Positions 22,518 through 62,931 of a DNA stretch of 64,000 nt are shown piece by piece (position 1 is the stretch's first letter; each line of letters opens with the position of its first letter). Below the pieces are notes generated by a model. That model was not told the origin of the DNA and ran no database searches. It saw only the letters and a list, made by a program, of their open reading frames with translations. The position numbers and the translations under genes are program-made. Where the stretch lies: NCBI GenBank assembly GCA_017307785.1, contig JAFKGI010000007.1:124001-188000 (forward strand), in the 5' to 3' direction. The DNA is from Vulcanimicrobiota bacterium (GTDB lineage: Bacteria > Vulcanimicrobiota > Xenobia > Xenobiales > JADMJV01).

Positions 22518-25500
22518 TCAGCGCGGGTCCCCCAGCAAGGTGAAGCCAGCCCAGTAATACGGGTGCGGATGCTGTCGCAGGCAGCTCAACTTGGCTTGAC
22601 GCAACGCCTCAAGCCGTGACTGTCCGCTCAACAGGGCTTGATACATCGGCAGAAAGAAGCTGGCCGTCACCTCATCGTCGATGGGCCAGAGAGCGGCCAC
22701 CACACTGGCCGCCCCGGCGGCACGGAAGCCACTGGAGAGCGAAATCAGGTCGCGCTCCCGGTGTTCCTGCGCCTGAGCGCCGCTGCAGGAACTCAGCACC
22801 ACCAGCGAGCCGGCTGGTAGGGCAAGTCCATAGATTTGCTCCATGGGCACCGGTCCTTCCGACAATTCCACATAGTTATCGGTTGCTCTCGAAGGAAAAG
22901 CCTGACTGTGGGTTGCCAGATGCAAAAACCGCGCCTGGGGAGCGAGTTCCTTCAGCTCCGCCCAGCTCTCGGTCCGGCGCCCGTCGGGAAACAGCCTGGC
23001 CAGGGCCGCAACTTCGGCTTGAGTCCCCGGCAGGCGAGCGTTGCTGACCCCCAGCCAGCGCCCAGCGGCCGCGGCCACCGGCAGGGCCAACTGCATTGCC
23101 TCACTGGGCCCCAGGTAGGCGCAGCCTCCGGACTCCACCAGGTAGTGCTCGTTCTCGTCCAGCAAGCTCTCGAAAGGCAGGTCCCAGAGCTCGGAGCTAG
23201 GCATCAACCACAGGTTTGGATGCTCCACTCGCAACGAAGCCAGCGGCTGAATCAGCTGGCTATAGAGCAAACGACTGGCCTCCCGCTCCTCGGCACTCAA
23301 AACGGACGGTTTGCGCAAAGCCCCACGCCAGCGTTCCAGCAGACTCAGCAGACGAGGTTTCTCGATGGTAATCTTGGCCAGGCGTTGCTCTTCTCGGGTC
23401 AAGGCCTGGATGTAGACCCCATCCGGTGCCAGATAATACTGAACCAACACCGTCCGGGTATCCAGAAACGGCTGCAAAGCCAACAGTTCGCTGACCTGGG
23501 CCGACATCGACTTCTCCATGTCCGGATTCAGCTGGCGTAACTCGTTGGTCTTCAGCAAAAACTGGGCGCGGGTATCGGCCAGACGAGCGGCCGAGGCGGG
23601 GTCGGAACTGGACCGCAGACCGGTTAGCTCCGCCCGCAACTGTTCTAGTTCGGGAGAAACGAGCGCCGGCTGGCTCTGCAGTGCGCGCCACACGGCCAGG
23701 CAATGGGCTCCTTCCTGAGGCCGTCCCGCCCGGATCGAGGCCTCTAGAATCGCTTCCATCAGCGCCTGCAGGCCGGGCGAACGCAGCGCCTGCGGACGGG
23801 CCGAGGTGGGTAGCTGCTCAAAGGTCTCGCGGAACTGCTCGAGCGCCTCGTGGCCAATCTCGAGAGCGCGCTCGGGAGAAGAGTCTGCCATCAAGCGCAA
23901 AGCCAGCCTGGGCGAGCGCGCGCTCACGTGGCTCAGCCAGTTCCCGGCCGGGTCCAGCTGCTGCAACGCCAGGTAGGCCTCGTTGCGGGTCACGTCCTGA
24001 GTGGCCGTCTCCAGAGCGCGCTTCAGGTCCTCCACGCGCTTGTAGGCCTGGCCCCGAACAATCAGATAGATCGGTTGGTAGCTGTCCTTCGCATCGGCCA
24101 ATCCCTCGTCCAACAACTTCAGCGCCTCTTCTGGTTGGCCGCTTTCCAGCAACTGACGCAGCAAAATCAGTCGAAAAATGCCCGGAGAGAGAAAGACGCT
24201 GCCTTTGCGCGACTGCTGGAAGGCCAGTCGGGACATTTCCAGAGCCCGTTGGCGACTGCCGGTACTCCACAGCTCCTGACTGAGCATCAGGGCGGTGTTG
24301 GCTTCCAGCGGTGAGTAGCCGCTTTCGGCCTCAAGGGCCTGCGAATAGGCGTCGATGGCTTCCAGGGGCCGGTCCAGGCTGCCTAAAACCATCCCTCGGA
24401 AAAGTCCCTCGGCCCCGCGCAGAGCGGGATGGTTGGACTGCTTCTTGAGGTCGTCGAGGGCCGCGAAGATGCGGGCCTGCAGGCGGACATCCTGACGCAG
24501 CTCGGCGAACATCCATCCAGCCGGAGTATCCGGGTCGACCCGTGGTGGCACCAGCGGCCCGGCCAGATGACGATTGGCGTCGAACGAGGACATCATCAAA
24601 GTGGTGAAAACCTGAGAATATGCCAGCGCCCGGGAAAGGGGAGCGTCCACCGTTTCGGCCCGAGCCAGAATGGAGTCCAAGGTCTGACGGGCCGACTGTA
24701 GTTGGGCGGTGCGCAAGTAGACTCCCAGCAGCGTCAGACTGGAGCCCAGAAACGCGTTGAAGTCCTCGCCAGCCGCCTGGGCCGCCTGTCGCCCCCAGCT
24801 CTCGGCTTCCCCATAGCGTTTTTGGCTCAACTCCAATTGAGCCAGCGCCGTGCTCAGCACCATGGGCTGAGCCAGAGCAAACACCTCGCTGCCAGCCGGC
24901 CGTTGAGCCAGACCAAAAGCTGCTTTCAGGTCCTTCAGGGCAGCCTCGGGCTGGCCATGAGCCGCCTCCAGGACCCCGCGCTCGCTCAACCCGATCAGCC
25001 GCTCATCGGCATTCTTGGAAGCGCAGAGCTGATCCGCTTCGCGGCGCCATTCCTCAAATCGCAGAGGATTGTTCTGGGCCACCAGCGAGCGAATGCGAAA
25101 AGCAAGGAGCCGCTTGCGCAAATCCCAATTCCGATCTCGTGCACGGATTCGCTCGAGCTTGGAGAGCAGATGGCCCCCCCGCTCTCGATCCAGTTCGCTA
25201 CGTGACTCGGCCAAGTTCAGCAGGAACAACAAAGCCGGAGCGCTCTCTTCGACCAATAGGGGCATCTCGGCTCTGCTCTCCTGGGCCTCGCCGCTGCGCC
25301 CCAGCGCGTTGAGGAGCTCGATGCGCGCACTCTGCAAACGCCAGGGGGCCGAGCTATCGGAACCCAACAAGTTTTGCACCACGGCCAGGTCAGCGAATCC
25401 CTCCTGGGGTCGCTTCAGGGAGCATAACAAATTGATGTGAGCCAGACTGAGACGGACCAGAAGCTCTCGGGACAATCGATGCTTGGACGCAATTTCCGCG

Positions 25501-25907
25501 GCTTCTTCCCAGTAGGACTGATCTTTGGGAAATGGATGGGAGCGAAAAAGACGCAGCAGCACGTCCACCCGATCGGCCGGGGTCTGGCTCAAATCCAGAG
25601 CCTGGTTCAGGTCTTTGACCCGACTCTCCGAGTAGAGAAGCGAGTGCACGATCAGATAGAGTCGAGCGCTGCGAGGATTCGGGCGGAAAGAGCGCAGGCG
25701 CTGGCGAGCTTCATCTCCGCGCAGGGAATTCTGCAGCGCCCAGATCTGCAGCAGTTCCGAACCTTCGGGGTCCTCCGGCCGGCAACGCAGCGCCTCCCGG
25801 TAGGCGTGCTCGGGACGGGAAGCCTCCAGGTGACGCCGGGCTCCTTCCAAATCGGCCCAGGCCGGAATCGCCAGCCAGGCGGTCAGAAACATCATCCGCC
25901 AACGCAT
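22518..25907 (-). CDS. Exported TPR-CHAT caspase-like protease
   Basis: The protein has 1129 residues with a signal peptide (about 1-18). Residues about 30-750 are helical repeats of TPR type. The C-terminal CHAT domain (about 840-1129) carries FLHLATHSQAF with catalytic His about 1000 and VVLSSCSGAQ with Cys about 1041, then the family-typical GFRAAGAASVVAALWPIDD. The dyad is intact, so protease activity is plausible (CHAT is clan CD, as separase and caspases). A signal peptide sends it to the periplasm. It lies 4 nt downstream of a propeller gene and 21 nt upstream of a hemoglobin gene. Confidence 0.9.
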   Translation of the reverse strand: MRWRMMFLTAWLAIPAWADLEGARRHLEASRPEHAYREALRCRPEDPEGSELLQIWALQNSLRGDEARQRLRSFRPNPRSARLYLIVHSLLYSESRVKDLNQALDLSQTPADRVDVLLRLFRSHPFPKDQSYWEEAAEIASKHRLSRELLVRLSLAHINLLCSLKRPQEGFADLAVVQNLLGSDSSAPWRLQSARIELLNALGRSGEAQESRAEMPLLVEESAPALLFLLNLAESRSELDRERGGHLLSKLERIRARDRNWDLRKRLLAFRIRSLVAQNNPLRFEEWRREADQLCASKNADERLIGLSERGVLEAAHGQPEAALKDLKAAFGLAQRPAGSEVFALAQPMVLSTALAQLELSQKRYGEAESWGRQAAQAAGEDFNAFLGSSLTLLGVYLRTAQLQSARQTLDSILARAETVDAPLSRALAYSQVFTTLMMSSFDANRHLAGPLVPPRVDPDTPAGWMFAELRQDVRLQARIFAALDDLKKQSNHPALRGAEGLFRGMVLGSLDRPLEAIDAYSQALEAESGYSPLEANTALMLSQELWSTGSRQRALEMSRLAFQQSRKGSVFLSPGIFRLILLRQLLESGQPEEALKLLDEGLADAKDSYQPIYLIVRGQAYKRVEDLKRALETATQDVTRNEAYLALQQLDPAGNWLSHVSARSPRLALRLMADSSPERALEIGHEALEQFRETFEQLPTSARPQALRSPGLQALMEAILEASIRAGRPQEGAHCLAVWRALQSQPALVSPELEQLRAELTGLRSSSDPASAARLADTRAQFLLKTNELRQLNPDMEKSMSAQVSELLALQPFLDTRTVLVQYYLAPDGVYIQALTREEQRLAKITIEKPRLLSLLERWRGALRKPSVLSAEEREASRLLYSQLIQPLASLRVEHPNLWLMPSSELWDLPFESLLDENEHYLVESGGCAYLGPSEAMQLALPVAAAAGRWLGVSNARLPGTQAEVAALARLFPDGRRTESWAELKELAPQARFLHLATHSQAFPSRATDNYVELSEGPVPMEQIYGLALPAGSLVVLSSCSGAQAQEHRERDLISLSSGFRAAGAASVVAALWPIDDEVTASFFLPMYQALLSGQSRLEALRQAKLSCLRQHPHPYYWAGFTLLGDPR

Positions 25908-53291: not shown

Positions 53292-54020
53292 ATGAAAATC
53301 CAGGCTGCTCCCCTACCGACGCTACCGAAGGTTCCGCACAACAAGGGGCCGCTGGAGGTGTCCATCGACTTCGTGGGACCTGCTCGCCAGGACACCAACC
53401 TGGGCCAGATTCCCAAGGATTTCTACACCTCTCGCGGCCGCACCGGCAGCAAGCACACGGAATTTCCCAATGCCCAGAGCCCCATCCGCGACGGCCGTGA
53501 GATTGTGCGCCCCCAACCGGTACTGGGCGCGGACGGCGCTCCCGTGCTGGTGGCCAGCAGCAAGCAGATCAAAGCCCAGGCGGATTCAGCCCTGAAACAC
53601 GGAATCATCGGCGCCCTCATCGGAGCCGGGGCCGGACTCTTCCTGGGAGCTTTCCCGGCCATCGCCACCGGTTCCGGGGCCGTCTGGGGCGGCGCCATCG
53701 CGGGCGGAGCGGCTTTAGGCGGCGGGATCGGCGCTCTCTCGGTCGCCAATGACCGCGTCCGGCTGGAGTGGCGAGAGCAACCAATTCTAACCCATCGCCT
53801 GCGCGGCTACACGGAACGCGTCAGCGAAGACAGTCACACCCAGAAAGACACCTTCGGTAATGGTTCCCACACCGTAACCGACGGCTACTGGCACCGCTTC
53901 ACGCCCGACGTTGGCGCCAAATCACTAGGAACCTATATGGAGCCGATGGTGGTCCACTATGACGCCCGCAGTGGAGCCATCCGCCGCGTCGAAGGCGAAC
54001 TCACGGCCAACGAAAGTTAG
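53292..54020 (+). CDS. Hypothetical protein with glycine-zipper membrane segment
   Basis: The protein has 242 residues. Residues about 1-95 are polar and Pro-rich with no signal peptide. A Gly-zipper hydrophobic region follows (HGIIGALIGAGAGLFLGAF and VWGGAIAGGAALGGGIGAL, about 103-150), then a soluble tail (LEWREQPILTHRLRGYTERV). TAATCT at 53281-53286 lies 5 nt before the ATG and no Shine-Dalgarno is present, a leaderless pattern. The 3' end overlaps the convergent lipoprotein gene by 4 bp. Confidence 0.65.
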   Translation: MKIQAAPLPTLPKVPHNKGPLEVSIDFVGPARQDTNLGQIPKDFYTSRGRTGSKHTEFPNAQSPIRDGREIVRPQPVLGADGAPVLVASSKQIKAQADSALKHGIIGALIGAGAGLFLGAFPAIATGSGAVWGGAIAGGAALGGGIGALSVANDRVRLEWREQPILTHRLRGYTERVSEDSHTQKDTFGNGSHTVTDGYWHRFTPDVGAKSLGTYMEPMVVHYDARSGAIRRVEGELTANES

Positions 54021-55204
54021 GGTGTAATCGCCCCGATTTTGTTGGTGGAGCTCTCGGTGAACCAGATGCGGTTGTCCGAGCCGCGACAAAGATTCAGCAC
54101 TCCACCCGAGATCCCGGCCTGAAAGAGGGTCGAAGCACCCGTTGTGGTCACCCGGCCCACGCCCGAGCCGCTGCCGAACCACAGGTTGCTGTCGGGCCCC
54201 AGACAAATCCCAGAAACTCCGGGGCTGGCCGTGACCGGAAAGGCCGTAATAACGCCGCTGGTGGTGATGCGGCTGACTTTGGCCGTATTGTTGGAAGAAT
54301 CGGTAAACCAGAGATTGCCGTCTGGCCCGTTGCAAATTCCCCCCAGGTTACCGGGTGAACTCACCGGAAAGATGGTGGCCGTCCCCCCCGTGGTCATGCG
54401 GCTGATGGAAGAAGCGTTCCAGTTGCTGGCCCACAGATTGTTGTCCGGTCCCTTGCACAGGGCATTGGCAAAAACGGTCGCTCCCGTGTAGGGAAAGAAG
54501 CTGAACTGACCGCCGGTGGTGACTCGACCCAACGCGTTGCTGGCTCCAAACCAGACGGCCCCGTCCGGTCCGGCACAAATCCCAACCCCGATCGACGGAT
54601 TGGTCTGCGAGGGGAGCGTAAATTCGGCCAGGCTGCCGCTCGGCGTGAGCCGCCCGATACGGCTTCCCGGCTCGGTGAACCAGATATTCCCGTCCGGCCC
54701 CACGCAGATCGAACCTGGATCGGCCGTCAATCCGGCGAATTCGGTGCGCACGCCGGCCGTGGTCATGCGCACAACCCGAGCAGGGCGGGCGGTATACCAT
54801 AAATTGCCGTCCGGCCCGCTGCAAATGTCCAGCGGCACGGTTGTCGGGTCCGAGCCGGCTGTGAATTCGCTGACCGCATTGCCCCCACTGGTGCTGGTTG
54901 TGCTGGTTGTGCTCGTGGTCGTCGTGGTCGGGGACGTTGTGGTGGTGGTCGTGGTTGTCGTGGTGGTGGGCGTCGTGGTCGTCGAAGTGGTTGTGCTGGT
55001 TGTCGAAGTCGAAGATGTGCTGGTGCTCGAGGTGGACGTACTCTGAGTGGTGGTGGTCGTCGTCGTCGTGCCGCCGCTCACGACCGTCCCACCGCCGCCG
55101 GTAAAAGTTCCATTGCTTCCGCCCGAGCCGCCACAGCCGGCCAGGACCAAGAGCAAATAAAAAGAACTCCCGCGAAGATTCTTACGCAAAATGACGCCCC
55201 TCAT
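54017..55204 (-). CDS. Vgb-like beta-propeller lipoprotein with Thr-rich linker
   Basis: The protein has 395 residues. A lipoprotein signal (VLAGC, Cys24) is followed by Gly-rich and then an about 60-residue Thr/Ser stalk (about 46-106), and a propeller of repeats with the pattern I(C)xGPDGNLWFT, for example ICSGPDGNLWYT, ICVGPDGNIWFT, ICAGPDGAVWFG and ICNGPDGNLWFT. This resembles virginiamycin B lyase-type propellers. Extended Thr stalks usually hold a surface domain away from the membrane. Streptogramin lyase activity is not supported by the anchor and stalk architecture. Confidence 0.82.
   Translation of the reverse strand: MRGVILRKNLRGSSFYLLLVLAGCGGSGGSNGTFTGGGGTVVSGGTTTTTTTTQSTSTSSTSTSSTSTTSTTTSTTTTPTTTTTTTTTTTSPTTTTTSTTSTTSTSGGNAVSEFTAGSDPTTVPLDICSGPDGNLWYTARPARVVRMTTAGVRTEFAGLTADPGSICVGPDGNIWFTEPGSRIGRLTPSGSLAEFTLPSQTNPSIGVGICAGPDGAVWFGASNALGRVTTGGQFSFFPYTGATVFANALCKGPDNNLWASNWNASSISRMTTGGTATIFPVSSPGNLGGICNGPDGNLWFTDSSNNTAKVSRITTSGVITAFPVTASPGVSGICLGPDSNLWFGSGSGVGRVTTTGASTLFQAGISGGVLNLCRGSDNRIWFTESSTNKIGAITP
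54887..55069 (-). repeat. GT-rich simple repeat coding the Thr stalk
   Basis: About 180 bp of ACC/ACG/AGC-type codons (GTGGT and GTCGT on the plus strand) encode a run of Thr and Ser with a few Pro. Low-complexity tracts of this kind vary in length by slippage, so the stalk may differ among relatives. Confidence 0.8.
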
Positions 55205-57486: not shown

Positions 57487-57939
57487 ATGAGCGTCATTCA
57501 ACAGTTGCCCCGCTGGGCCCAGGCCCCCACCCAGAAGTTTATCGACAAGACCAAGATCGAAGGCACCGAGACCCGCCCGCTCGATCAGGACGGTTTCGAC
57601 CAGGGATTCAGCCACGCCGCCGGCGTGCTGTTGATGTGCGGCAACGACGAAGTTCCCGGCGAGGACCAGGCCATGGACCAGCCCGGACTGGTCAAGAGAA
57701 ACGGCGCCACCGTCCATTTCGAAGGAGACCTCAGCGATGGACGCGGCTCGGTCGAAGCCATCGTGCTCGGCCGCCGTAAAGGCGTCGAATATGTCTCCTA
57801 TGTGCAGTCGCGTCCCGACGGTTACACCAGCCTGAAGCTGGTCAATGACGAAGGTTCCATCGACCTTCACGGCACCCAGGCCCAGCGCAAAGGCGGCGCG
57901 ATGCAGGGCTACTTGTTGTCGGGCAGCTACTACGAGTAG
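57487..57939 (+). CDS. Hypothetical protein
   Basis: The protein has 150 residues. It contains a charged N-terminal half and a beta-rich C-terminal half (GSVEAIVLGRRKGVEYVSYV, SLKLVNDEGSIDLHGTQAQR). TAGACT at 57474-57479 lies 7 nt before the ATG, with no Shine-Dalgarno. No family recognised. It precedes the caleosin gene by 79 nt on the same strand. Confidence 0.65.
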   Translation: MSVIQQLPRWAQAPTQKFIDKTKIEGTETRPLDQDGFDQGFSHAAGVLLMCGNDEVPGEDQAMDQPGLVKRNGATVHFEGDLSDGRGSVEAIVLGRRKGVEYVSYVQSRPDGYTSLKLVNDEGSIDLHGTQAQRKGGAMQGYLLSGSYYE

Positions 57940-58018
57940 CTTTCAGCGATCTTTCATTCCACCTGGCTAGACTCCAATCACACACAGATAGAGTTCAGCG
58001 CATTCAGAGGTGAAAAAG

Positions 58019-58840
58019 ATGATCAGCCCCATCCGTTCCATGGGTCCCCTGGCGCCCGCGCGCCGCAACGGTTCAGTCGCAGCCCAAGGCGAAACTCCGC
58101 AGACTCCGGATCAAGTCACGCTCTCCAAGGGCCCGAACGGTCCGGAAGGTCCGGATAAGCCGCGTCCGCGCGGCAGCGTGTTGGGCAAGATCGCCCGCGC
58201 CGTGGGCCTCACCGTAGGACTGAGCACCATCGGCCTGGTGGGCATCGGCGCCGTCGTGCCGGCCGTCATCCAGCACCCGACCGTGCACATCGCGCCCCAG
58301 AACATGACCGCCCTGCAAAAGCACCTTTCTTTCTTCGATCAGAATCACGACGGCAACCTGACCCGCAGCGAAACCGCCCAGGGCCTTCAGAAGTTAGGCC
58401 TTAGCCCGGTGCGCTCTCAGGTCACCGGCAGCTTGATCAACGCCGGCATCGGCGTCAAAAGCAGCGATCACTGGTACGACTTCACCACCGTCAACCTCTC
58501 CAAGATCCACTCTTCCAAGCACGGCAGCGACACCGGCATCTACGACACTCAGGGTCACTTCGTGCAGTCGAAATACGACGAACTCTGGTCTCGCTTCGAC
58601 CAGGGCAACAAGGGCGCCCTCAGCCAGTCGGACATCCAGGCCATGCACGCCTCGCTGAGCACCGACAAGGTGGGCGACGTGGCCTCCAAGGCCGAATTCG
58701 ACCTGCTGATGGAACTGGCCGGCCAAAACCGAACTATGGCCGACGGCAGCAGCCAGCGCGTGCTCACCAAGGAACGCATGCAGCAGTTTTACGACGGCAG
58801 CCTCTTTTACCAGCTGGCCGGAGAAACCGCGCCTTTTTAA
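58019..58840 (+). CDS. Bacterial caleosin-like protein (EF-hand, putative heme peroxygenase)
   Basis: The protein has 273 residues. A disordered N-terminus (containing TPDQVTLSKG) is followed by a hydrophobic helix (about 60-86), then the caleosin core: LQKHLSFFDQNHDGNLTRSE (His102 and an EF-hand loop at 107-118), IHSSKHGSDTGIYDTQGHFV (163-182, His168), and FYDGSLFYQLAGE near the end. These match plant caleosins (HVAFFDQ-, KHGSDTGTYDTEGRYV, CFDGSLFEQ), including both His residues associated with heme. A second, degenerate calcium loop is FDQGNKGALSQSD. Plant members sit on lipid droplets and are Ca-dependent peroxygenases. GAGGTGA five bases upstream sets the start. Confidence 0.85.
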   Translation: MISPIRSMGPLAPARRNGSVAAQGETPQTPDQVTLSKGPNGPEGPDKPRPRGSVLGKIARAVGLTVGLSTIGLVGIGAVVPAVIQHPTVHIAPQNMTALQKHLSFFDQNHDGNLTRSETAQGLQKLGLSPVRSQVTGSLINAGIGVKSSDHWYDFTTVNLSKIHSSKHGSDTGIYDTQGHFVQSKYDELWSRFDQGNKGALSQSDIQAMHASLSTDKVGDVASKAEFDLLMELAGQNRTMADGSSQRVLTKERMQQFYDGSLFYQLAGETAPF

Positions 58841-59784
58841 CGAACCTTGAGCTGCGAGGCCTGGGAGTAGCGCCCCAGGTCCAGTAGCAGGCGAGCTTTC
58901 GTGTTCAGCACGCCCGGATCGCCCGGGCGCAAGCTCAGAGCCGAATCGGTGGCCGCCAGAGCTTCCTCGAGAAATCCCTTTTCTTCCAATAGATTGGCCA
59001 GGTAGACCCAGGGCTGTGGGCTTTTCGGCTCAAGTTGGGACCACTGAGCCACCTGTTTCCGCGCGGCCGCCAGCTCTGTTTCTTCCTGAGCGCTGGCGTG
59101 GTAGAGACGCGTCCACAAGCTCAGTTTCTGAGAAGACGGGTCAAAAACGCGTAAGCTGTAGGCTTTGGGGGTGTCCTCCAGGGGCCAGGGCGCCTGCCAC
59201 TGCCAGCGGCCGCCAACCTCGTGCCCGCTGACCTGAGTGGCAAACACCGACTTCGCGGGGCGTCCCGACTCCGCCACCGTCTCGAAATTGGACAGCAGGG
59301 TGGGCATCGTCTCGTGGTCCAGGTAAACGAACTCCAAGGAAGGAGGCGCGCCCTTCCCGGCCGGGCGCGACAGGGTCAGACCCTCCGGAGTCACTTCCAC
59401 CCGGTCCAGAGAGGAATCCCAGGGTTTCGAGGCGACCCTGCGCAGCGTCATTCCCCCGATCTGGCGCTGGTTCTCCCCGTTGAGGGCCAGACGCACCTGA
59501 GTCGAGGCCAAAGATTTGGACTGCACGCCTTTCAGCGACAGTCCGCGAGTGGAGACCTGAACTTTGCCCTTGCCCGACAGCTCCAGCCGTTCGCCTTTGT
59601 TGAGCAGCAGCACGGTCACACGGGAACCGGCGGGCAGGTCGATACTTTGACCGTCCGACCACATTTGACCGGTCAGAACCTCGGGACTACCCTCGGCCTT
59701 CAGAACCATGGCGACCTTTTTCGGCGCTGGCTGAGCCAGCGCCACCCCCGCCAGCAAGAGTGCGATCAGGGTTCTGGAAAACAT
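58837..59784 (-). CDS. Exported FecR-like/TPR protein
   Basis: The protein has 315 residues with a signal peptide ending VALAQ. The N-terminal part resembles FecR-like domains (EGSPEVLTGQMWSDGQSIDLPAGSRVTVLLLNKGERLELSGKG). The C-terminal part has TPR units (WVYLANLLEEKGFLEEALAATDSALSLRPGDPGVLNTKARLLLDLG). AGGAGG seven bases upstream decides the ATG at 59784. It starts 10 nt after the caspase-like gene, so the pair forms an operon. Confidence 0.78.
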   Translation of the reverse strand: MFSRTLIALLLAGVALAQPAPKKVAMVLKAEGSPEVLTGQMWSDGQSIDLPAGSRVTVLLLNKGERLELSGKGKVQVSTRGLSLKGVQSKSLASTQVRLALNGENQRQIGGMTLRRVASKPWDSSLDRVEVTPEGLTLSRPAGKGAPPSLEFVYLDHETMPTLLSNFETVAESGRPAKSVFATQVSGHEVGGRWQWQAPWPLEDTPKAYSLRVFDPSSQKLSLWTRLYHASAQEETELAAARKQVAQWSQLEPKSPQPWVYLANLLEEKGFLEEALAATDSALSLRPGDPGVLNTKARLLLDLGRYSQASQLKVR

Positions 59785-59794
59785 GGACTGCCTC

Positions 59795-62700
59795 CTAAGG
59801 CTTGCCGCTCTGGCGGATGGGGAAATCGGTGCCGCTGACAAACTGGAAGACATCCTGGTTGAGCCCGACCTGCCTGCACAGGTCGGGAACCTGACTGCAC
59901 ACGTAATAAACCAGTCCGCTCACGGTCACCTGTTGTCTGGAATTAGGGGGAGCTGACTTCAGCCCCTCCAACAAGCTATAAGTCAGTAAGCCGTGCTGCA
60001 ATTTGGGCAACTCCAGGGCCGATTGGTCGCTACGACAGGCAGCCAGCAAATAGACACCCGAGCCACGCGCCATCTTTTGCTGACTCAGCGCAAACGAGGA
60101 AGCCATCTCGTCGCTGACGGCGCCGGCGTGACAGGTGTCCAGAATGACGAACTGCTTCTGGGCCGGGAACTCGCGCAACCACTGCGCCAAGGCCGGACCA
60201 TCCACACTCGGCTGTCCGTCGGCCATTAGAAAGTGATAGCCCTTAGAGTCCAGCGAGCCGTGACCGGCCAGAAACAGCACCAGCGTATCCTGCGGCTGCG
60301 CCTGCTTGCCCAATTCTTCAAAGGTCTGGCGCAGCGTATCGGTTCGCGCCTTGTCCCCCGTGAGCAAACGGACTTCGTTGTATTCAAAGAGCGAGGACTG
60401 GAGTTTCTCGCTGAACGACTGGGCGTCTTTTTCGGCAAAGGTCAACTTGGGAGCGTTGGCCGCCTGATTGACTCCCAGGGCCACCACCCAGAGCTTGGGG
60501 TTGCGCTGAGCCACGGCGGTGCAGGTCACTCGCAAGCGGTCGCCGCGACTCTCCACCGTACCCGACTTGTCCATGGCGGTGCAGCGCAACTCGTTGACGC
60601 CGGCCTGTAGAGGAGCCTGCAAAAGGTAAATTCCACCCTCTCGGCGCGCCGTCTGGGGGACGGCCTTGCCGTTGACAAAGAGGCGTGGCTCGCCCGCTCC
60701 CCCACCCTGGTCTTTGACGCTGACGCGAACTTCCACGATGCGCTGGGGGATTTCCGCGCCGGGGGCGGGCGTCTGGAACGTTACCAGCGGCGGCTCGATC
60801 TGGAGACCCGCCACCGGAGTTTTGCTGGATGCGGCTGCCGTTGAGGAAGCAAACGTTTTGAGCAGGCCGGGTCGATAAGCCTTCTCGAAAATCTGGTCGA
60901 CTCGCACTTTGCGTTTGTTCACCAGCCACTCGACCTGCCTCTCGGCCGCCGGCGTGCCGTCAAAAAGCCCCGAACTGTCCGAAGCCAGCCAGTCCTCTCC
61001 CCCGTTCAGAACCAGCAGTTGTCCCCGCGGCGTGGATTCCTGGGGCTTCCAGAACTCCACCGTGGCCTCGCGCCCCACGCTCACAAAGCTGCCGTTGGGA
61101 AGCGGGACGATACCGCTAGAACTCCAGTTAGCCGCGTCCGGCAACAGGGGTTGAGGCTCCGGACTGTCGCCCAGCAGCAAGACCTGCCCCAGGTCTCCGA
61201 ACATCAACCAGCGCTGACCCACCTCATCGTAGTTGAGGCGCACCTTCCAGCCGCTGTGCGACTTGAAGTTGTAGGTCCGGCTCCCGGCCGGTGCGTGAAT
61301 GATTTCTTGTTCGCTGCGAGCCACCACCGGCTGCAAACTCACCTCGCGGCCCACCACCTCGTCCAGACAGAACAGTCGATCCTGACTGTCGTATTCCAAA
61401 GCGGTTCCATGATAGTTGGGAAACTGCTTCTGTTGGCCGCTGGCCAGGTCGGTCTCCGTGATCACACCCGCTTCGGCCACCGCCAACCGGGCCGGAGAGT
61501 TGCGCGACAGTGCGTAAGACATCGGCAGGGACTGCTGCTTGAGCAACTTGCCGGTCTTGACTTCGTAGGCCTCCAGCTTGTTCTTGCGCAGGCCGACCAA
61601 GAACTGACCGTCCGCACTCAAGCGCACCCGCGTCAAGCCGTCGGCGATAGCAAGCTTGCCTTTGGACTCGAGGCGTTCGGCATCGACCAGTTCCAGCCCG
61701 TCGCCTTCCCGCGAAACGACCAGGACTTTGCCATCCGCGCTTACGGACAGGCCCTGGATGCGGCCTTTGCCAGGCAACAGCGTCTCCCGACCGCCGCTGT
61801 GCAGACTCCAGCAGACCACCTGTCCACTGATCAGGCCGGCAAAGATCCGGCTCTTGCGGTCGTAGGCCACATAAAGAACCTCGGAGAAAGGCGGATTGAC
61901 CAGCGCCTCTTTGCCCGTGGCCGCCTCCAGGACCTTGCCTTCCATATTTCCCACCACCATCTGGTGGGCGGCCACCCCTTCCCCGAAGACACCGGCCAGC
62001 GTGTGCGAACCCAGGACCCGGTCGCTTTCCGGGTGCTGCGGGTCCAGTTGCATCAAGCGCTGCTGGGACAGATACTGGATCTTGCCGTTCACCCAGAAGG
62101 CCTTGGCGTCAGGAGGGTGGCCGAAAGGACCGCGCATTTTCCCGGCCTTGATCAGATAAACACCGCGCCCATCGTAGCCCAGCAGCGTTTCGCCATCCGG
62201 CCCATAGTCTCCCAAGCTGAACTTGTCCGAGGTTTTCTCGATCTGCCAGTTCACTTTGCCGGCCGGCAGGCTCAGCTCCAGGACTTTGCTGCCGCCCAGC
62301 AGCACACAGGCTCGCGTTCCCATGCGGTTGAGAGCAAGGTAAGAAATGGTTTCATCGGGTTGAGACGCGGGAATCGGCCATGAGGCCAGCCGCTTCCAGG
62401 CCAGAGGCTCCCACTGCTGTAGGGTCAGCGGACCTTCCACTTTGGGGCAAAAATAAAGCTTCCCACCCGCCTGAGCGGCCCCACCCTGACTGCGACAAGG
62501 TTGTTCGGGACGAACTCCCAACTGCTGTCCGCTGCGCACATCATAGAGATGGTAGCGAAAATCGTTGCCGTAGCAGATCAGATGGTCGGGACTGAGCCAA
62601 TCCAGCCAGAACGGCATGAACCCGCCACGCTCGGAAGTCAGCGTCTGCTGCAGCTGATGACTGCTTTCGTCCCAGACCTTGATGACGCCGCCGGTGTCGC

Positions 62701-62848
62701 CACTGGCCAGCAAGGCCCCGTCCGGACTTTCCTTAACCACGCTGATGGGATGCGAATGCGGTACGGGCACCACCAATCGAGGGCTGGGGGCGGGTTCGCC
62801 CATGGCCAGTCCGGTGCAGAAGAGAAAGCCAAGCAGGGTCCGTTTCAT
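59795..62848 (-). CDS. Exported caspase-like (C14) protease with WD40-like propeller
   Basis: The protein has 1017 residues with a signal peptide (MKRTLLGFLFCTGLAMG). Residues about 30-560 form beta-propeller repeats (SPDGALLASGDTGGVIKVWD). A beta-rich linker domain follows, and the C-terminal peptidase C14 domain has LFLAGHGSLDSKG with His about 863 and FVILDTCHAGAV with Cys about 906. The dyad is intact. Such metacaspase/WD40 proteins occur in cyanobacteria and other multicellular or social bacteria. An alternative GTG lies just upstream at 62851. It forms an operon with the FecR/TPR gene. Confidence 0.9.
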   Translation of the reverse strand: MKRTLLGFLFCTGLAMGEPAPSPRLVVPVPHSHPISVVKESPDGALLASGDTGGVIKVWDESSHQLQQTLTSERGGFMPFWLDWLSPDHLICYGNDFRYHLYDVRSGQQLGVRPEQPCRSQGGAAQAGGKLYFCPKVEGPLTLQQWEPLAWKRLASWPIPASQPDETISYLALNRMGTRACVLLGGSKVLELSLPAGKVNWQIEKTSDKFSLGDYGPDGETLLGYDGRGVYLIKAGKMRGPFGHPPDAKAFWVNGKIQYLSQQRLMQLDPQHPESDRVLGSHTLAGVFGEGVAAHQMVVGNMEGKVLEAATGKEALVNPPFSEVLYVAYDRKSRIFAGLISGQVVCWSLHSGGRETLLPGKGRIQGLSVSADGKVLVVSREGDGLELVDAERLESKGKLAIADGLTRVRLSADGQFLVGLRKNKLEAYEVKTGKLLKQQSLPMSYALSRNSPARLAVAEAGVITETDLASGQQKQFPNYHGTALEYDSQDRLFCLDEVVGREVSLQPVVARSEQEIIHAPAGSRTYNFKSHSGWKVRLNYDEVGQRWLMFGDLGQVLLLGDSPEPQPLLPDAANWSSSGIVPLPNGSFVSVGREATVEFWKPQESTPRGQLLVLNGGEDWLASDSSGLFDGTPAAERQVEWLVNKRKVRVDQIFEKAYRPGLLKTFASSTAAASSKTPVAGLQIEPPLVTFQTPAPGAEIPQRIVEVRVSVKDQGGGAGEPRLFVNGKAVPQTARREGGIYLLQAPLQAGVNELRCTAMDKSGTVESRGDRLRVTCTAVAQRNPKLWVVALGVNQAANAPKLTFAEKDAQSFSEKLQSSLFEYNEVRLLTGDKARTDTLRQTFEELGKQAQPQDTLVLFLAGHGSLDSKGYHFLMADGQPSVDGPALAQWLREFPAQKQFVILDTCHAGAVSDEMASSFALSQQKMARGSGVYLLAACRSDQSALELPKLQHGLLTYSLLEGLKSAPPNSRQQVTVSGLVYYVCSQVPDLCRQVGLNQDVFQFVSGTDFPIRQSGKP

Positions 62849-62931
62849 CACTGTGGTTGCGACTCCTAAGGGTGGGATTCCTGGCGCCAGTTTACCCCGC
62901 GGAGCCGGCCCCAACCGTGAGCGATGTTACG

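Follow-up and report, generated by a model that had tools for sequence, protein, structure and literature searches.

In a 64,000-nucleotide stretch of contig JAFKGI010000007.1 from a Vulcanimicrobiota bacterium (hereafter the window), the gene at positions 58019–58840 of the forward strand is, judged by its sequence, a real and well-supported bacterial caleosin, encoding a protein of 273 amino acids without cysteine. That it belongs to this family had been claimed in an earlier note made from the DNA letters, and a profile search bore this out: Pfam family PF05042 matched the translated open reading frame (ORF) along its whole length (profile positions 1–170 of 170) with a score of 135 bits (cut-off 27; E = 3.3e-39), which is far beyond chance. 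The family is known chiefly from the oil bodies of plants. The protein has a complete EF-hand loop and both invariant histidines, and we lean, on balance, towards its being a heme-dependent peroxygenase that is exported or sits at the outer face of the cytoplasmic membrane. The main interest of the protein lies in a predicted structural bridge to the fungal peroxygenases and in an invariant glutamate.

The ORF runs from an ATG at 58019 to a stop codon ending at 58840; the mechanical ORF listing places the start at GTG 58010 instead. A probable ribosome-binding site, AGAGGTG (58006–58012, forward strand), lies 6 nt 5′ of the ATG, and no consensus promoter or terminator was detected near the gene. 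An Rfam search of the window gave no match. A single PF05042 copy was found in the genome to which the window belongs, and the same search matched none of 14 well-known control genomes.

Conserved residues and the N-terminus

The window protein was aligned with 187 of 197 homologues, giving 188 sequences (10 homologues outside 170–300 amino acids were dropped). These homologues comprise 69 of bacterial type, defined as absent from the eukaryotic search and mostly metagenome proteins, and 118 from the eukaryote set. His102, Phe106, His168, Asp171, Gly179, Glu226, Gly260 and Phe263 are identical in all 188 aligned sequences. The two invariant histidines are putatively heme-linked: His102 (codon 58322–58324, forward strand, as are all codons and motifs below) is the proposed proximal heme ligand, and His168 (codon 58520–58522) lies together with the invariant Asp171 in the motif KHGSDTGIYD (58517–58546). 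We take them to be the counterparts of His70 and His138 of Arabidopsis CLO1. Glu226 (codon 58694–58696), a proposed acid–base catalyst if the fold is peroxygenase-like, is not discussed in the caleosin literature covered. The earlier note had spoken of two heme-linked histidines, a description that fits H102 (in LQKHLSFFD) and H168 (in KHGSD), each found in 187 of 187 homologues, but not the histidine of NHDG. The latter, His110, is not conserved (6 of the 69 sequences of bacterial type and 32 of the 118 in the eukaryote set) and was ruled out as a heme ligand. A divergent caleosin-like protein from the phylum Elusimicrobia (L057, in a 398-amino-acid frame) keeps the first histidine and has RKGTHH where KHGSD is expected.

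The first EF-hand loop, DQNHDGNLTRSE (residues 107–118; 58337–58372), is complete and predicted to bind calcium. It falls within an EF-hand_6 match at residues 100–127 (27.6 bits versus a cut-off of 25), and D107 and D111 are each conserved in 186 of the 187 homologues and E118 in 184. The stretches FFDQNHDGN, KHGSDTGIYDTQGHFV and FYDGSLF, previously read as caleosin signatures, are each present in the protein and align with plant caleosins, and the histidine and EF-hand positions do correspond to those of the family alignment (H102, H168 and loop 107–118). The second loop, DQGNKGALSQSD (residues 194–205; 58598–58633), is degenerate in the window protein, with G and K at ligand positions and a match of the EF-hand-pair model PF13499 at residues 188–237 barely at the cut-off; it is intact in the relatives P0006, P0007 and P0008. 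Its first ligand, Asp194, is found in all 69 bacterial-type sequences and in none of the 118 eukaryote-set ones.

A hydrophobic N-terminal stretch (residues ~62–84; 58202–58270; Kyte–Doolittle KD15 maximum 2.28), preceded by basic residues, is predicted to be an anchor or signal and would place the domain outside the cytoplasmic membrane, by export or anchoring. Model confidence is low in this region (pLDDT <50 for residues 49–77). Among 70 bacterial-type sequences, the window protein included, a lipobox-like pattern occurs in 35, and such a pattern or a hydrophobic N-terminus in 52. The earlier observation that a hydrophobic helix precedes the EF-hand was correct, but the arrangement does not set bacteria apart, since the N-terminus is likewise hydrophobic in 18 of the 118 homologues of the eukaryote set. 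A published classification, as far as its available text goes, describes a caleosin ‘N-class’ as prevalent among both plants and bacteria (PMC9807586). A long proline-rich leader 5′ of the hydrophobic stretch (58019–58170) is common to the window protein and P0001–P0003, P0006, P0007 and P0010; its first residues are MI, MV or MT, followed shortly by SP or PL, and it is unusually long to stand before a signal-like segment.

The canonical oil-body segment, a hydrophobic stretch with a proline motif between the EF-hand and the second histidine, was not found in the window protein. Its central stretch 3′ of the EF-hand has a 19-residue Kyte–Doolittle (KD19) maximum of just 0.72, below the 5th–95th percentile range of the eukaryote set (1.36–2.07; n = 118). 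Mean KD19 maxima of this stretch, which in plants serves lipid droplets, are 1.23 in bacterial-type sequences versus 1.74 in the eukaryote set, with overlapping ranges, and prolines in the knot region average 1.4 versus 3.2. The idea of a lipid-associated peroxygenase survives in part: peroxygenase activity is a reasonable expectation from the characterised plant and fungal members, but the segment that canonically binds lipid is weakly developed, and the N-terminal stretch more closely resembles an export signal or membrane anchor. We infer that the window protein is an exported or anchored variant of the known family with a weak lipid segment. It shares with the plant and fungal caleosin/peroxygenases (PF05042, EC 1.11.2.3) the full-length profile, the first EF-hand, both invariant histidines, the invariant Glu226 and the C-terminal YDGSLF motif, and differs from them in its weak central hydrophobic stretch, its signal-like N-terminus and its retention of Asp194. 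Purification and crystallisation may prove easier for exported bacterial members, where the membrane segment is weak, than for oil-body proteins.

Predicted fold and proposed peroxygenase mechanism

The predicted domain consists of four EF-hand-like helix pairs. Across the whole domain, the best structural matches of the window model were fungal unspecific peroxygenases, and a model of a plant caleosin gave the same best matches; half-domain matches were calmodulins and calbindin. In the fungal unspecific peroxygenases and chloroperoxidase (PF01328, EC 1.11.2.1), a distal histidine and glutamate have possible counterparts in His168 and Glu226 of the window protein. Those enzymes carry a heme-thiolate cysteine in a PCP motif, which the cysteine-free window protein lacks, and the PF01328 profile gave no match to it at E up to 1. 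We propose, tentatively and with less than even confidence, that bacterial, plant and fungal caleosins form the branch of the chloroperoxidase/unspecific-peroxygenase fold that uses a histidine ligand and binds calcium, and in which a calmodulin-like duplicated EF-hand pair would clamp the heme. Having two EF-hand positions and lacking the oil-body hairpin, the bacterial members would be nearest the ancestral state, and EC 1.11.2.1 and EC 1.11.2.3 would be of one origin, with a common distal His–Glu pair and a swapped proximal ligand. Such a model predicts that the invariant glutamate is a catalyst and that a histidine takes the place of the thiolate. If true, it would join two peroxygenase classes hitherto treated separately and offer biocatalysis a calcium-binding, histidine-ligated scaffold.

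No sequence link between caleosins and peroxygenases emerged from hhalign (not significant) or from free-end profile alignment. In anchored alignments to peroxygenase, the peroxygenase His110 was paired with H168 or its equivalent in five of six cases, and Glu180 with E226 or its equivalent in one of six. Searches of PDB sequences returned no solved caleosin; the best rows were EF-hand proteins, none with an E value better than 4e-7. A search for PF01328 through 140 genomes from the phylum that includes genome G104 gave no match, not even in the controls, so that absence is not demonstrated there. We found nothing in the open-access literature pairing caleosin with chloroperoxidase, or with peroxygenase, AlphaFold and heme together; one paper includes both caleosin and unspecific peroxygenase, in its available text without a structural link (PMC12524458). 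According to the available text of Lopez-Tavera and colleagues (PMC13394420), bacterial models were searched with fungal peroxygenases, yielding 21 hits, two of which had a predicted histidine-coordinated heme and were excluded; the words caleosin and EF-hand are absent from its main text. These two excluded hits, known by their description, may be bacterial caleosins. The bacterial unspecific peroxygenases (BUPOs) of that study resemble the window protein, as described, in being bacterial, in being lipoproteins or exported in some clades and in having the fungal-peroxygenase fold; they differ in being cysteine-ligated by selection.

In the mechanism we envisage, the two halves of the domain would hold heme b between them, as chloroperoxidase does. 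The proximal iron ligand would be His102, which lies on the first helix and would stand in for the cysteine thiolate in this cysteine-free protein. His168 and Glu226 would form the distal acid–base pair responsible for cleaving the peroxide, Ca2+ bound in the first EF-hand would keep the proximal side in shape, and the N-terminal stretch would position the domain at the outer face. The oxygen acceptor might be an unsaturated lipid or another hydrophobic molecule near the membrane, and the oxidant H2O2 or a lipid hydroperoxide from the cell exterior or environment; both are guesses, an external oxidant being suggested because the host genome gave no match to lipoxygenase (PF00305). The host genome encodes ferrochelatase and is therefore likely able to make heme. 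PF00305 was matched in 3 of 18 genomes tested, namely 3 of the 14 that bear a caleosin (G017, G105 and G107) and 0 of the 4 that do not. A lipoxygenase partner for caleosin is unsupported, as 11 of the 14 caleosin-bearing genomes had no match.

In the caleosin literature covered, the two invariant histidines coordinate the heme, and accounts of heme binding rest on these alone. A plant-type active site, in which both would ligate one heme iron and the likeness to peroxygenases would reflect only a shared helical arrangement, is a serious rival that we nevertheless consider unlikely: both models rank peroxygenases above every other listed row across the whole domain, and bis-histidine ligation by itself leaves unexplained why Glu226 is as invariant as the histidines. 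The peroxygenase-like arrangement also has findings to contend with, as chloroperoxidase merely ties with EF-hand rows in the structural comparison of the window model, and Asp171 is exactly as invariant as Glu226 (187 of 187 each). We judge it improbable that the protein binds calcium in a structural or signalling role and retains the caleosin residues without peroxygenase activity in bacteria. The calmodulin and calbindin half-domain matches would suit this reading, as would the aspartate that opens the second EF-hand loop throughout the bacterial-type sequences and the lack of a lipoxygenase match in most caleosin-bearing genomes, the host's included, but full conservation of both histidines and Glu226 in 187 homologues is not expected of a pure calcium protein.

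Occurrence and origin of bacterial caleosins

Within its class, caleosin was found in 3 of 18 genomes, the host's included, and the same 3 were the only ones among 98 relatives up to the rank of phylum. The congener G004 encodes a different caleosin, 41–42% identical, on another contig. A wide scan of one genome per species (84,980 species), using exact peptide patterns that miss divergent members, yielded 13 encoding loci, and all 13 genomes, each of them a metagenome-assembled genome, were confirmed above the cut-off. By the depositors' own labels, these loci belong to Armatimonadetes, Vicinamibacteria, Elusimicrobia (2), Kofleriaceae, Myxococcales (2), Proteobacteria (3, one a gammaproteobacterium), Cyanobacteria and two bacteria without a group label; loci L004 and L007 are apparently those of class-mate G017 and congener G004. 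Matches were obtained in 2 of 377 genomes sampled from the phylum to which the Kofleriaceae genome belongs and in 6 of 294 from that of an Elusimicrobia genome, the genome in question included each time; three of the six were weak, partial matches in very long frames. In the latter phylum, loci L059, L060 and L061 gave weak partial caleosin matches in frames of 1167–1336 amino acids, which may be chance or EF-hand cross-matches. A protein profile search, in which the best 7996 candidates were scored, returned at least 78 proteins at E up to 0.001. With few matches spread across many labelled groups, the caleosin family thus appears sparse but broad in bacteria. One protein, P0067, has a caleosin domain fused to the start of an ATP-binding cassette transporter ATPase on a 2.6-kb contig and is probably an assembly chimera.

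Phrase searches of the open-access literature for bacterial caleosins returned nothing, although individual papers do mention such proteins. The statement that caleosins are mostly described in plants, algae and fungi holds for the literature covered, but bacterial ones have been published or named too: in Sorangium cellulosum (PMC5957377), by mention in some Legionella (PMC7542358), and in databases for a Kofleriaceae bacterium. The Sorangium CLO/PXG-like proteins are, in the available text, likewise bacterial, with an EF-hand and two histidines reported, and differ by description in having seven paralogues and a lipid-binding domain and in the plant origin suggested for them (PMC5957377). 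The present distribution recasts bacterial caleosins from isolated plant-derived oddities to a sparse family of several phyla.

The site of the window gene bears on its history. It is flanked upstream by a conserved gene without a Pfam match (57487–57939, forward strand), matched in six of six genomes of its family (own included), and downstream by a convergent gene with C-terminal TPR (58837–59853, reverse strand), strongly matched in five of the six (own included) and weakly in G005 (E 2.2e-4). In the congeners G003 and G001, the matches to these two genes adjoin, separated by ~40 and ~20 bases, and no caleosin lies in the gap; in G002, G004 and G005 the two genes have their best matches on separate contigs, which are uninformative about the site. 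The window gene was therefore either gained, or lost in both congeners. Since its flanking genes occur together without caleosin in two of the five other family genomes (G003 and G001), and the gene lies on a contig of 256,443 bases with bacterial genes, eukaryotic contamination was ruled out. Its GC content (63.1%) and GC at third codon positions (GC3; 82.4%) are close to those of its neighbours (60–63% and 74–81%), and it thus does not have the look of a fresh import.

The phylogeny called for in the earlier note was built from 51 rows (32 bacterial-type and 19 eukaryote; the incomplete L013, the partial L014 and most near-copies were left out), and in this unrooted tree, with long branches and thin eukaryote sampling that includes one named fungus on a long branch, a branch with support 100/100 divided the bacterial-type from the eukaryote rows without exception. 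Approximately unbiased (AU) tests, their hypotheses chosen after inspection of the tree, rejected grouping of the window clade with plants alone (P = 0.0165) or with fungus/protist-like rows alone (P = 0.0128), and did not reject its position as sister to all sampled eukaryotes (P = 0.405); a clade of the window group with the congener protein L007 was neither shown nor rejected (P = 0.498). Recent acquisition from a plant or fungus is thus disfavoured and, to us, very improbable. Its patchy occurrence in the class and the empty sites in two congeners would agree with such an import, as would the plant-to-bacterium transfer suggested for Sorangium in the available text (PMC5957377), but the single bacterial-type grouping, the rejected plant-only and fungus/protist-only groupings, the retained sister position and the unremarkable base composition all argue against it. 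The tree and AU results speak against carrying the plant-transfer reading for Sorangium, as described there, over to the window gene.

Neighbouring genes

A conserved operon around bacterial caleosins was unsupported: Pfam scans of 20 mechanically called neighbouring ORFs at six loci (L004, 3; L005, 4; L006, 3; L009, 4; L010, 1; L011, 5) found no family common to most, and 8 of the 20 ORFs had no Pfam match at E 1e-4. Multicopper oxidase genes lie near caleosin at L005 (4093–5832) and L011 (7826–9721); as this concerns two loci only, it may be chance. In the window, the downstream flanking gene adjoins one for a WD40-like protein that carries a caspase domain at its C-terminus (Peptidase_C14; 59795–62914, reverse strand). 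Elsewhere in the window, the reverse strand encodes a TPR-CHAT protein (22518–25907) and a Vgb-lyase-type beta-propeller in which a long threonine-rich linker follows an apparent lipoprotein signal (54017–55204).
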